Part shown: in pieces, positions 24,224 through 27,079 of the stretch
Layout: every line of letters starts with the position of its first letter
Numbering within the stretch: position 1 is the first letter of the stretch
NCBI RefSeq assembly: GCF_001758345.1
Contig: NZ_MKQS01000013.1
Coordinates: 15,955-62,369, forward strand
Direction: 5' to 3'
Source: Acinetobacter towneri
GTDB lineage: Bacteria; Pseudomonadota; Gammaproteobacteria; Pseudomonadales; Moraxellaceae
DNA: 46,415 nucleotides
Program-made: the position numbers and the translations under genes
The notes under the pieces: model-generated
Database searches by the model: none
What the model was told of the DNA's origin: nothing
What the model saw: only the letters and a program-made list of their open reading frames with translations

Positions 24224-24300
24224 GTTATAAGTCAGTGTTTCAACCCCACTTTGCTTAGGCTATTTATAATGATGCATATTTTGCATCCTGCCAAATGCAA

Positions 24301-24323
24301 AAAAGCATCTTGAAGATGCTTTT
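24301..24323 (-). terminator. Terminator after the GST-like gene
   Basis: A near-perfect palindrome (AAAAGCATC and GATGCTTTT arms) 25 bp after the stop of the GST-like gene; on the minus strand it ends in a T tract. Confidence 0.85.
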
Positions 24324-24348
24324 ATAACAATCAAAAACCACTTAACGC

Positions 24349-25128
24349 TTATTTGCCATAAGTTTGCTGTAAATACTTCACAATCTTAGCTGATTCAAAA
24401 AGCTGAGTCTGGGTATTTGGATCGATTAAAAATGGGACTTGAATATTATCACCCATGACTTTTAATACCTGCTCACGCTTACCACCTGCCAGTGGCACAT
24501 ATTTACCCGGTTTTAAACGTAATTTTGCCAAGCCTTGATCTTGCCAACGCTCTTTGGCTACATTATGAAATTTGAATGGCAACTCCAGTTCAGTCAATAC
24601 ACCACGCACTACACGTGTATAAGGACTAGCCTCAAAACCCCACAGTTCAATCAATTGTTCAGGTGCAGCGCGCTCTACAATTTGCTGATTAATCCACACA
24701 CCACGTGCACCATTCAATAATGTGCCCGCAAGCGCCACATAAGGAATTTTAGGAAAATGCGCATATTTTTTTGGCGTTTTTCCACTTTTACCATAATGTT
24801 TGAATAAATGATGAATGATCTGCTGTGATTCATAGAGGTGATCACCTGTATTTTCATCAATTAAAAATGGAAACTGAGTTTTACCGCCGAGTAGTTTCAC
24901 TAAAGGACGATATTTTGTGCCGCCTTTGGGACATGGATAAACTTGATAATCCAAATTTAACAAGGTCATGACTTCACGTACACGACGGCAAAATGGTGAA
25001 CCTTCAAACTCATATAACTTTAAGGCTTTTTCGGGTTGCTTGGGAAACGCAGTCCCATTCACGCCACGCCCACCCTCGGTAAGCATAGATGCGATTGCCT
25101 GAATGACTTTAATTTGATGATGCACCAT
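24349..25128 (-). CDS. Double glutathione S-transferase N-terminal domain protein
   Basis: A 259-residue protein made of two thioredoxin-fold GST-N domains. The first is at about 35-118 (ALKLYEFEGSPFCRRVREVM, FPFLIDENTGDHLYESQQII) and the second at about 158-257 (LIELWGFEASPYTRVVRGVL, VPFLIDPNTQTQLFESAKIV). Each has the cis-proline (VPFLID/FPFLID) and the ES motif that contacts the glutathione gamma-glutamyl group. The first keeps one active-site-like cysteine (SPFC); the second has SPYT. No all-helical GST C-terminal domain is present. Similar tandem proteins occur in plants and proteobacteria, and their reaction is not settled. AAGGA precedes the ATG. rraA-like gene upstream on the same strand, 53 bp away. 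Confidence 0.8.
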   Translation of the reverse strand: MVHHQIKVIQAIASMLTEGGRGVNGTAFPKQPEKALKLYEFEGSPFCRRVREVMTLLNLDYQVYPCPKGGTKYRPLVKLLGGKTQFPFLIDENTGDHLYESQQIIHHLFKHYGKSGKTPKKYAHFPKIPYVALAGTLLNGARGVWINQQIVERAAPEQLIELWGFEASPYTRVVRGVLTELELPFKFHNVAKERWQDQGLAKLRLKPGKYVPLAGGKREQVLKVMGDNIQVPFLIDPNTQTQLFESAKIVKYLQQTYGK

Positions 25129-25181
25129 TTTGTTTTCCTTTTGATGTGCTTAGCAATTTGATGACTGCGCCATCAAACCGC

Positions 25182-25694
25182 TTATAAATCGACCAGCTTT
25201 TCCTTTGCTACAATAATACCGTTGTTGTCGGCATAGACATAATCGCCAGAATTAAAAGTGACTTGTCCGAAATGCAAACTCACATCTACTTCACCCACGC
25301 CTTTGCGGTTACTTTTTTGTGGAATTGAAGCCAAAGCATGTACGCCTAAATCAAGTGCTGCAATTGCATCGACATCGCGCACACAACCGTAAATAATCAC
25401 GCCATTCCAGTGATTTTTCACTGCAGATTCAGCAATCAAGTCTCCCATCAAGGCACAGCGCATAGATGCCCCACCATCTACTACCAAAACCTTGCCCGTA
25501 CCATCGGTTGCCAATAACTCTTTTACACGCGAGTTATCTTCAAAGCACTTTACAGTCACAATTTGACCACCAAAAGTTTTACGTGCACCGTAACTTTTGA
25601 AAAATTTACCATCCAAAGATGGAATCACCACTTCAAGGTCATGTTTTGGATGGTCATCTAATAAGTCACAAGTTACGAATGGTACTGTAGACAC
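25182..25694 (-). CDS. RraA-like protein; possible 4-hydroxy-4-methyl-2-oxoglutarate aldolase / oxaloacetate decarboxylase
   Basis: A 170-residue RraA-family protein with a GTG start, preceded by AGGGGA at suitable spacing. FGGQIVTVKCFEDNSRVKELL, VVDGGASMRCALMGD and NHWNGVIIYGCVRD are typical. Asp85, Arg106 and Asp107 complete the D-X20-R-D metal motif of HMG/CHA aldolases; E. coli RraA has Gln after the Arg and lacks the aldolase reaction. This protein therefore looks catalytically competent, although such genes are often labelled ribonuclease E inhibitor RraA. It lies 12 bp after the TIP30-like oxidoreductase gene and is probably co-transcribed with it. Confidence 0.85.
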   Translation of the reverse strand: MSTVPFVTCDLLDDHPKHDLEVVIPSLDGKFFKSYGARKTFGGQIVTVKCFEDNSRVKELLATDGTGKVLVVDGGASMRCALMGDLIAESAVKNHWNGVIIYGCVRDVDAIAALDLGVHALASIPQKSNRKGVGEVDVSLHFGQVTFNSGDYVYADNNGIIVAKEKLVDL

Positions 25695-25706
25695 GTTGTT
25701 CCCCTT

Positions 25707-26372
25707 TTACTTGGTTTTTTGTATTTGTAAATTATCATAAATTTGAAATTTATGAATTTGCGATTGCGCCGCCTCGACCATAGTATGAGCCACTTGTGTA
25801 GCGCTTACTGGCTTATATCTAAAATGATCGGGAATAAATCGTGATATTTTAAGATACAGCTTTTGCCCTAAATCTTCTAAACGCCGTTGTTCATTGCGCT
25901 CACCCAATAATAAAGATGGACGCAACATTGATACTTTGTCTAAATCTAAGCTTTCAATATATTGTTCTAGCTCGCCTTTGACACGATTATAAAATACGGC
26001 TGATTTAGCTTGTGCACCCAAAGCACTGACCAATATGTAATGCGTACCCTTCGCCTGCAATAGTTCGGCGAAATGTGCATTGATGGTATAATCCACAGCA
26101 TAAAATGCCTCTTTTGAGCCTGCCTTTTTTAAAGTTGTGCCTAAACAACTGAATGCATGGCTATAACCACTCACATCTTCATCATTGAGCAATAAAAAGT
26201 CTTCGAGTAATAACGTGTGGACTTTTTCTAAGTGATTCAATTCAGGACACGGTCGGCGCAAAACAACGGTGATGTTTTTACATTCAGATAGCTGATTCAG
26301 CCGTTTAACCAATTGCTGCCCAACTAAACCATTTGCACCAATTACAATTGCATTTTGAATAGAATTTATCAT
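25707..26372 (-). CDS. NAD(P)-binding oxidoreductase, atypical short-chain (TIP30/HTATIP2-like)
   Basis: A 221-residue Rossmann protein. The dinucleotide motif GANGLVG is at about 13-19. AFSCLGTTLKKAGSKEAFYAVD and YNRVKGELE (a Tyr-x3-Lys pair near 138-142) are characteristic of the HTATIP2/YbjT-like group of atypical short-chain dehydrogenases. RPSLLLGER then follows. Substrate and role are unknown. It starts the minus-strand pair with the RraA-like gene. The region upstream is shared divergently with rpsT. Confidence 0.78.
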   Translation of the reverse strand: MINSIQNAIVIGANGLVGQQLVKRLNQLSECKNITVVLRRPCPELNHLEKVHTLLLEDFLLLNDEDVSGYSHAFSCLGTTLKKAGSKEAFYAVDYTINAHFAELLQAKGTHYILVSALGAQAKSAVFYNRVKGELEQYIESLDLDKVSMLRPSLLLGERNEQRRLEDLGQKLYLKISRFIPDHFRYKPVSATQVAHTMVEAAQSQIHKFQIYDNLQIQKTK

Positions 26373-26453
26373 TTTTTAAACAATCTCTGAGGCTTAAAGC
26401 TAATCTACCTGTTTCTTTCCGATTTTTCTGCAGCTAAAATGTTGTCAAAGCAT

Positions 26454-26490
26454 GTCAAGACTTGACTTAACTGTCTAGTTTCATCAAAAT
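26454..26490 (+). promoter_or_regulatory. Candidate rpsT promoter with a palindrome over the -35
   Basis: TTGACT (26462-26467), a 17-base spacer and CAAAAT (26485-26490). A perfect palindrome GTCAAG-A-CTTGAC (26454-26466) overlaps the -35, and another TGTCAA copy lies just upstream. The -10 is weak, so a further start nearer the gene is possible. Confidence 0.4.
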
Positions 26491-26587
26491 ATGGCACTTG
26501 TTTACGGGCTGGTGATAATTCTTCTGATGTTGGTTTTCGGAAGTAATTGCAGCCCGCCCAGACCAATCTATTTCAAGGAGTGTACGA

Positions 26588-26857
26588 GTGGCAAACTCTG
26601 CTCAAGCTAGAAAACGTGCTCGTCAAAACGTTAAAGCACGTAAACACAACGCAAGCTTACGTTCTATGGTTCGTACTTATTTAAAACGCACAATCGCTGC
26701 TATTGCTGCAGGCGATTATGCGGTTGCATCTGAAGCTTACAAAAAAGCTGTTCCAGTGATTGACCGTATGGCTGATAAAGGCATCATCCATAAGAACAAA
26801 GCAGCTCGTCATAAGAGCCGTTTAAACGCTCAAGTTAAAGCTTTAGCTTCTAACTAA
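26588..26857 (+). CDS. rpsT: 30S ribosomal protein S20
   Basis: An 89-residue basic protein of three long helices, starting (M)[20 protein letters not shown] and continuing [13 protein letters not shown], as in S20, which binds 16S rRNA early in small-subunit assembly. The start codon is GTG at 26588 with AAGGAG seven bases upstream. E. coli rpsT likewise uses a non-ATG start, linked there to autogenous translational control, so the same may apply. A terminator follows 13 bp after the stop, making it monocistronic. Confidence 0.97.
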
Positions 26858-26870
26858 GTGTTAAACAAAA

Positions 26871-26892
26871 GAAGCCCGTTAGGGCTTTTTTT
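26871..26892 (+). terminator. Terminator of rpsT
   Basis: AAGCCC, a four-base loop, GGGCTT and a T tract, 13 bp after the rpsT stop. Confidence 0.92.
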
Positions 26893-27079
26893 GTGTCTGC
26901 TAACTCGCTTGCGCTTCCAACTGTTACTTAAAATTAGGCATTTCAACTTACTTAAAGCTTTTTTTAGCCATGAGTACGAGCATTTTTACCGCAGGTTGAA
27001 TACAATCGCTTTATTGCGAAATATTCCGTGTCGATAATAACTTCTCGGCTTGATGCACTTGATGCGTTCAATGTTCTAC

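Follow-up and report, generated by a model that had tools for sequence, protein, structure and literature searches.

A short RraA-fold protein of Acinetobacter towneri, probably a metal-dependent enzyme outside the RraA1 clade of RNase E inhibitors

The rraA-like gene and its surroundings

The window analysed here, a 46,415-nucleotide stretch of Acinetobacter towneri, carries on its minus strand an rraA-like coding sequence for a protein of 170 residues (25182..25694), recognised as an open reading frame with its translation: it starts at a GTG (25694..25692) and runs for 170 codons to a stop codon ending at 25182. A likely ribosome-binding site, AGGGGA, was read directly at 25700..25705 on the same strand, 6–11 bases upstream of the GTG. 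The protein matches Pfam PF03737 together with NCBIfam NF006875 and NF009134, and in a profile search the gene is the only PF03737 match of its own 2.95-Mb genome. Sequence and alignment locate Asp85 at 25440..25442 and, after exactly 20 residues, Arg106 (25379..25377) and Asp107 (25376..25374), the latter two codons filling 25374..25379, all on the minus strand; the three residues stand where a preliminary description had placed a D-X20-R-D motif resembling that of HMG/CHA aldolases. This resemblance is not due to chance, for the residues align with those of the aldolase in PDB 3noj, in which GD-X20-RD is also present, and of three LigK copies from the genus. The residues invariant between the window protein, these three LigK and one RraA2 protein (see below) include G84, D85, R106, D107, D151, D156 and G159. 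The same description was also right that E. coli RraA has Arg-Gln at positions 106–107 (PDB 1q5x); in addition, E. coli RraA has Ala in place of Asp85.

Another distinguishing feature of the protein is a five-residue insertion, Ser-Leu-Asp-Gly-Lys, at codons 26–30 (25605..25619, minus strand): judged by alignment columns, it is absent from the 75 gammaproteobacterial homologues compared, and it is present in 18 of 20 members of the same bacterial family from other genera, being missing in L317 and L087. Codons 9–30 (25670..25605) thus combine two traits seen in all 55 genus copies, the insertion and, in a wide alignment, a Leu at the usual Cys position. In that alignment the position of E. coli Cys9 is taken by Leu12 in 55/55 copies, with a Cys three residues earlier (Cys9 of the window protein); a narrower alignment sets Cys on Cys, and the predicted model has low confidence around this Cys9/Leu12 region. 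The stretch may affect the contacts between subunits of the oligomer.

Three chromosome-sized Acinetobacter baumannii records matched about two thirds of 24300..26900 at 75.5–75.6% DNA identity, with 83.7–84.5% identity for the protein. Two deposited Acinetobacter contigs name the gene RraA. Some database labels look doubtful: three Acinetobacter records of 3.7–4.1 Mb filed as plasmids (NZ_CP077849.1, NZ_CP064203.1 and NZ_CP104448.1) are probably mislabelled chromosomes, and two records filed as 'Acinetobacter phage MD-2021a' (CAKLQH020000011.1 and CAKLQF020000009.1) carry a chromosomal-type rraA and are probably host contigs or mislabelled.

Upstream of rraA, across a gap of 12 bp (25695..25706) that agrees with the preliminary description, a minus-strand gene (25707..26372) encodes a TIP30/PA4017-like NAD(P)-binding (Rossmann) protein of 221 residues (PDB 2a35, PA4017, 3e-28; TIP30 2bka, 8.9e-19). 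Downstream by 53 bp, and again on the minus strand, lies a gene for a glutaredoxin/GST-like protein (24349..25128) with two GST N-terminal-type (thioredoxin-fold) stretches (Pfam GST_N_3), which passes no NCBIfam equivalog cut-off. A weak terminator-like hairpin follows it (24301..24323, minus strand); the scan returned two such sites in the region against 2.6 expected by shuffling, the other being inside rraA itself (25609..25622), and no terminator-like site in the two gaps between these closely spaced genes. Co-transcription of the three genes is plausible.

A TIP30-like gene stands upstream of rraA on the same strand at 52 of 55 genus loci, at 12 of 20 family loci from other genera (20 read of 60 matches, namely the 19 best-scoring plus L087) and at 0 of 74 other gammaproteobacterial loci; the corresponding counts for a GST-like gene downstream, also on the same strand, are 49/55, 9/20 and 0/74. 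Eight further genus loci have the TIP30-like gene in seven cases and the GST-like gene in all eight. The three genus loci without a TIP30-like gene lack it within the stretch read; for L085 that stretch runs out some 650 bases before rraA on its upstream side, where the contig stops. The pairing that the preliminary description had singled out is real, but it is conserved only inside this bacterial family, and the linkage of the three genes is, on these gene orders, a family habit and not a general partnership. Being so confined, the TIP30-like link says little about chemistry; this, together with the finding of YxxxKxE in 40 of the 52 genus TIP30-like partners, led us to drop it as a clue to the substrate.

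Family models, predicted fold and the spread of the motif

Against PF03737 the window protein scores 160.1 bits (gathering threshold 24.5), and it passes NF006875, 'ribonuclease E activity regulator RraA', with 224.3 bits against a cut-off of 136. The latter model does not discriminate: eight proteins of the RraA1, RraA2 and other types were scanned, and every one of them passes it as well. NF009134, 'putative HMG aldolase', is passed narrowly, by 5 bits (201.2 versus 196). The protein fails both the enterobacterial RraA model TIGR02998 (176 versus 241.25 bits) and the LigK/HMG-CHA aldolase equivalog TIGR02798 (40.5 versus 304.5 bits). NF006875 and NF009134 are curated 'equivalog' models whose names conflict, one denoting a regulator and the other a putative aldolase, and both are passed not only by the window protein but also by others such as L222, L003, L022 and L030.

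An AlphaFold model of the window protein, made with 14 sequences (mean pLDDT 79.9; residues 1–9 and 124–130 under 50), predicts an RraA fold: it matches P. aeruginosa RraA (PaRraA, PDB 3c8o) with Z 25.2 and an rmsd of 1.7 over 157 residues. Among solved structures PaRraA is the nearest (193 bits; 55% identical when aligned by structure), and it resembles the window protein in its intact D-X20-R-D motif and in its charge (−7 versus −5). Unlike PaRraA, the window protein has the insertion at 26–30, and in the wide alignment its Cys at 9 is off the E. coli Cys9 position. The predicted model also matches T. thermophilus RraA (1j3l; Z 24.8), which by alignment uses another motif, G-X20-R-D-X2-E; this protein is reported to have HMG aldolase and oxaloacetate decarboxylase activity (Mazurkewich 2014). 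With the LigK/ProA family (3noj, Z 16.0 to the model; TIGR02798) the window protein shares the fold, GD-X20-RD and, as seen in the three genus LigK, D151, D156 and G159; on the other hand, the two are only 20–22% identical, and the window protein fails the ligK cut-off and has no C-terminal extension. In P. putida LigK, one more acidic residue comes from that extension of the adjacent subunit.

An rraA-like gene was found in 55 of 59 genus genomes, and all three motif residues are present in 55/55 genus copies, that of the window included. No match was obtained in the other four of the 59 (G019, G020, G026 and G049); although these absences may be draft gaps, they suggest that some members of the genus probably do without the gene. 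We also made a class-wide draw of 274 gammaproteobacterial genomes: 94 matched NF006875, 80 of them over the cut-off, and 75 of these were read (left out were our own genome, G066, G145, the partial G269 and G323, as well as the 14 matched genomes under the cut-off). Of these 75 copies, 56 have D-X20-R-D, 16 combine Gly85 with R-D and Glu110, and three have neither form; Arg106 is present in 75/75 and Asp107 in 73/75, and 72/75 carry one or other of the two metal motifs. On these alignments D-X20-R-D is the family norm and E. coli RraA the exception, and we rejected the idea that the motif is an unusual feature of the window protein, given its presence in 55/55 genus and 56/75 gammaproteobacterial copies.

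The second form corresponds to an alternative metal motif, G-X20-R-D-X2-E/D, that Mazurkewich 2014 is said to have described. Glu110 accompanies Gly85 in 16/16 copies, against 11/56 of those with D-X20-R-D (Fisher 3e-9, uncorrected for ancestry). We do not count this link as independent evidence: the tree holds only two well-supported independent pairs, and when all 16 Gly85 rows were held together, the resulting tree was not rejected (p-AU 0.65), its likelihood exceeding that of the free quick tree. The pairing of Gly85 with Glu110 may be a single event; it is in line with the two motifs already published and carries no independent weight. In PMC5065237, most RraA homologues are described as having one of two motifs for metal binding and catalysis, and as likely class II pyruvate aldolases. 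The general idea of RraA homologues as pyruvate aldolases is therefore already in print (Mazurkewich 2014, cited in PMC5065237).

The RraA1 clade and the RraA2 paralogue

We name as RraA1 the proteins of the E. coli RraA/VvRraA1 type, and as RraA2 those of the type of VvRraA2 and V. cholerae RraA (PDB 1vi4). For RraA1 we read 125 rows (the 80 best of 405 relatives, 10 top matches, 34 chosen by place, and L023), of which 121 are distinct; L027 was dropped because its contig equals that of L132 in length and in sequence match. The 36 RraA2 rows (the 30 best and six more) were chosen by similarity to 1vi4, not by motif. The title of L132 (NZ_JAGHQT010000008.1), Endozoicomonas sp. G2_1, looks doubtful, for the RraA of this record stands closest to those of Colwellia and Thalassotalea. 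An RraA2-like match of 48% identity (G377:C37:231635-231997) falls within a reading frame 10,820 residues long, which would be a giant fusion protein if it is not an artefact of the frame.

The two types differ sharply at the metal site: Asp85 is kept in 0/125 RraA1, and the full motif is present in 36/36 RraA2 read. Almost every RraA2 row (35 of 36) comes from a genome that also has an RraA1 paralogue, and in one order-wide draw RraA2 accompanies RraA1 in at least 35 of 114 genomes with any match. Where both were read within one genome (35 genomes), RraA2 was intact and RraA1 broken in 35/35, with RraA1 12 to 21 charges below its partner. Counted across the aligned part, net charge runs from −13 to −23 in RraA1, from −8 to +1 in RraA2, from −3 to −8 in the genus (−5 in the window protein) and from −13 to +4 in a further 73 gammaproteobacterial copies; of the 164 rows outside RraA1 not one reaches −14, and the ranges meet at −13, with two RraA1 rows on one side and L105 on the motif-intact side.

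In a 99-row tree made without the motif columns (a quick search, unrooted, with many weak inner forks), RraA1 forms one clade of 26 rows (SH-aLRT 100); beyond it, L123 alone has a broken motif. The window protein falls outside RraA1, together with proteins of the same bacterial family (an 11-row clade, support 98). E. coli RraA, to which it is 49% identical over the structural alignment, and VvRraA1 share its fold and family (TIGR02998 being their model); the differences are the strong acidity of RraA1, its want of Asp85 and the place of the window protein outside that clade. With RraA2, for which NF009134 is the matching model (the single row scanned passes it at 260 bits), the window protein shares the intact motif and a mild charge. 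RraA2 nevertheless sits elsewhere in the tree, near PaRraA, where its support as a single group is 23, but 97 for 16 of its 17 rows, and the window genome has no RraA1 paralogue, unlike those of 35/36 RraA2 rows. A sister relationship of RraA2 and RraA1 was not supported in this quick search. Because the outside relatives 1nxj, 2pcn, LigK and 5x15 are intact, loss of the motif in RraA1 is the simpler direction of change on the unrooted tree.

The shift in RraA1 is one event on the tree, so that motif loss and acidity are correlated once only. We rejected a general rule by which every loss of the motif would make a protein acidic, since L123 lost it independently and has a net charge of −4. This gammaproteobacterial RraA (G307:C1:2853359-2856841) has Arg85 and Asn107. 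Among the papers listed in literature searches, mostly as abstracts or titles and outside closed journals, we found no division of RraA1 from RraA2 by the metal motif. What appears to be new, as far as the aligned proteins go, is a rule at the level of clades: RraA1 lost the metal site and turned acidic, and RraA2 and nearly all other relatives read, those of Acinetobacter among them, kept the site. We offer a tentative hypothesis, to which we give somewhat less than an even chance: in Gammaproteobacteria, RNase E inhibition would be a derived property confined to RraA1, a clade descended from a pyruvate-enolate enzyme whose metal site it lost on one occasion while turning strongly acidic; the enzyme would persist as RraA2 in many RraA1 genomes; and all other 'RraA' proteins, those of Acinetobacter included, would be misnamed enzymes, with the state of Asp85 and the net charge separating the two kinds.

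Enzyme or RNase E regulator

PMC5738090 describes VvRraA1 of V. vulnificus as a hexamer that binds and inhibits RNase E, and VvRraA2 as a trimer that does neither; PaRraA is said there to form a hexamer, a state linked to RNase E binding. ScRraA2 (S. coelicolor RraA2) appears in the same paper as an effective inhibitor of the RNase E-like protein RNase ES, S. coelicolor RraA1 being another reported inhibitor. We placed the two V. vulnificus proteins by the residues that their cloning primers encode (given in PMC5738090), compared with L212, L132, L222, L224 and 1vi4: MEYNTS for VvRraA1 and, after a presumed cloning Gly, KDIT for VvRraA2 are the starts of RraA1 and RraA2 rows, respectively. E. 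coli RraA and VvRraA1 therefore belong to the clade that lost the site, and VvRraA2 fits the type that kept it. According to PMC3814787, E. coli RraA contacts the helicase SrmB via a negatively charged cluster, which fits the charge shift of RraA1; the same paper calls its physiological role in RNase regulation debated and reports no direct inhibition of RNase E catalysis. The relation between motif loss and inhibition is a correlation drawn from one evolutionary event and not proof, and three cases count against it: ScRraA2 (5x15), whose aligned stretch has an intact D-X20-R-D and which is an inhibitor; PaRraA, intact and hexameric; and L123, broken and not acidic.

We consider it fairly probable that the window protein is a metal-dependent oxaloacetate decarboxylase/aldolase, a short RraA-fold enzyme outside the RraA1 inhibitors. 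Counted in favour are the aligned motif and its conservation, the fold matches, the NF009134 pass and the TIGR02998 failure, the place outside RraA1 and the charge of −5. Counted against are the predicted model, which shows no metal; the shortness of the protein, without the C-terminal extension of LigK; ScRraA2 and hexameric, motif-intact PaRraA; the RNase E of the own genome, where two RNase E/G-family genes are over the cut-off; and the equivalents of E. coli D50 and D128, which are kept or similar, E53 being lost. These three residues, D50, E53 and D128, which were tested in E. coli RraA for helicase binding, correspond to E59, A62 and D137 of the window protein, the first two varying within RraA1 also: the E53 position holds Ala in 54/55 genus copies and, among 125 RraA1 rows, Glu in 36 and Ala in 25.

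The preliminary description had set enzyme against RNase E inhibitor as an either/or test. This test is weak: since ScRraA2 keeps the motif and is yet a reported RNase ES inhibitor (PMC5738090), enzyme and inhibitor need not exclude each other. A protein with both capacities, enzyme and binder of the Acinetobacter RNase E or of a DEAD-box helicase, could draw on that precedent, on the genome's RNase E, on the acidic equivalents of D50 and D128 and on the hexamer ascribed to PaRraA in the same source. We nonetheless think it unlikely: VvRraA2, placed among the intact, mildly charged proteins, neither binds nor inhibits RNase E in that account, E53 is replaced in nearly all genus copies, albeit at a position that also varies inside RraA1, and the oligomer Cys needed in V. 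vulnificus is Leu12 in 55/55 copies by the wide alignment, if Cys by the narrower one. That the protein is purely an RNase E regulator and its motif a relic is highly improbable, despite the NF006875 pass (224 versus 136 bits) and the 49% identity to E. coli RraA: a relic would hardly be kept in 55/55 genus copies and, in either metal form, in 72/75 wider homologues, and the clade of E. coli RraA and VvRraA1 has Asp85 in 0/125 rows, while the window protein fails the model of that clade. A different chemistry on the same fold and metal site, for instance that of a sugar-acid dehydratase/decarboxylase, we regard as improbable. FlDet, an RraA-family protein, is a KDGR dehydratase/decarboxylase (PMC8563752), and the TIP30-like and GST-like neighbours indicate no particular pathway; FlDet is, however, distant, sharing 26% identity with the RNase E inhibitor of S. 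coelicolor and 20% with HMG/CHA aldolase (same paper), and the window protein groups with short RraA on the tree.

For the favoured decarboxylase/aldolase, we infer metal binding, catalysis and substrate from the observed residues, fold class, conservation and tree place. The protein would be a short enzyme, probably trimeric like its relatives, that binds Mg2+ or Mn2+ at a site using Asp107 and, through water, Asp85; Arg106 would hold the 2-oxo acid, these roles likewise being those proposed by analogy with relatives. A pyruvate enolate would be formed either when oxaloacetate is decarboxylated or when a 4-hydroxy-2-oxo acid undergoes retro-aldol cleavage. Our first guess at a cellular role is the decarboxylation of oxaloacetate, possibly as metabolite repair, since this reaction passes through the enolate and is common to class II pyruvate aldolases (PMC5065237). 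The proposal of the preliminary description that the regulator name may hide an enzyme gains from the narrow NF009134 pass, the TIGR02998 failure and the position outside the site-loss clade; it loses in that the window protein shares its motif with most of the family, for which the same case had already been argued in 2014. Judged on sequence, the enzyme name fits at least as well as the regulator name.

If most proteins called 'RNase E activity regulator RraA' are metal enzymes and one clade are inhibitors, conclusions about RNA decay drawn from the name would be unsafe for bacteria such as Acinetobacter and Pseudomonas, and a conserved step in central metabolism would be going unnoticed. 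The paralogue pairs of vibrio-like genomes and their relatives offer a ready test of a change from enzyme to protein inhibitor.

The gene is unlikely to be devoted to protocatechuate 4,5-cleavage: only 3/59 genus genomes (G015, G016 and G041) have a true ligK over the cut-off, all three together with the short gene, which is present in 55/59. The own genome encodes one LigB-family protein, which we take, from an E. coli match in a control, to be of the YgiD type.
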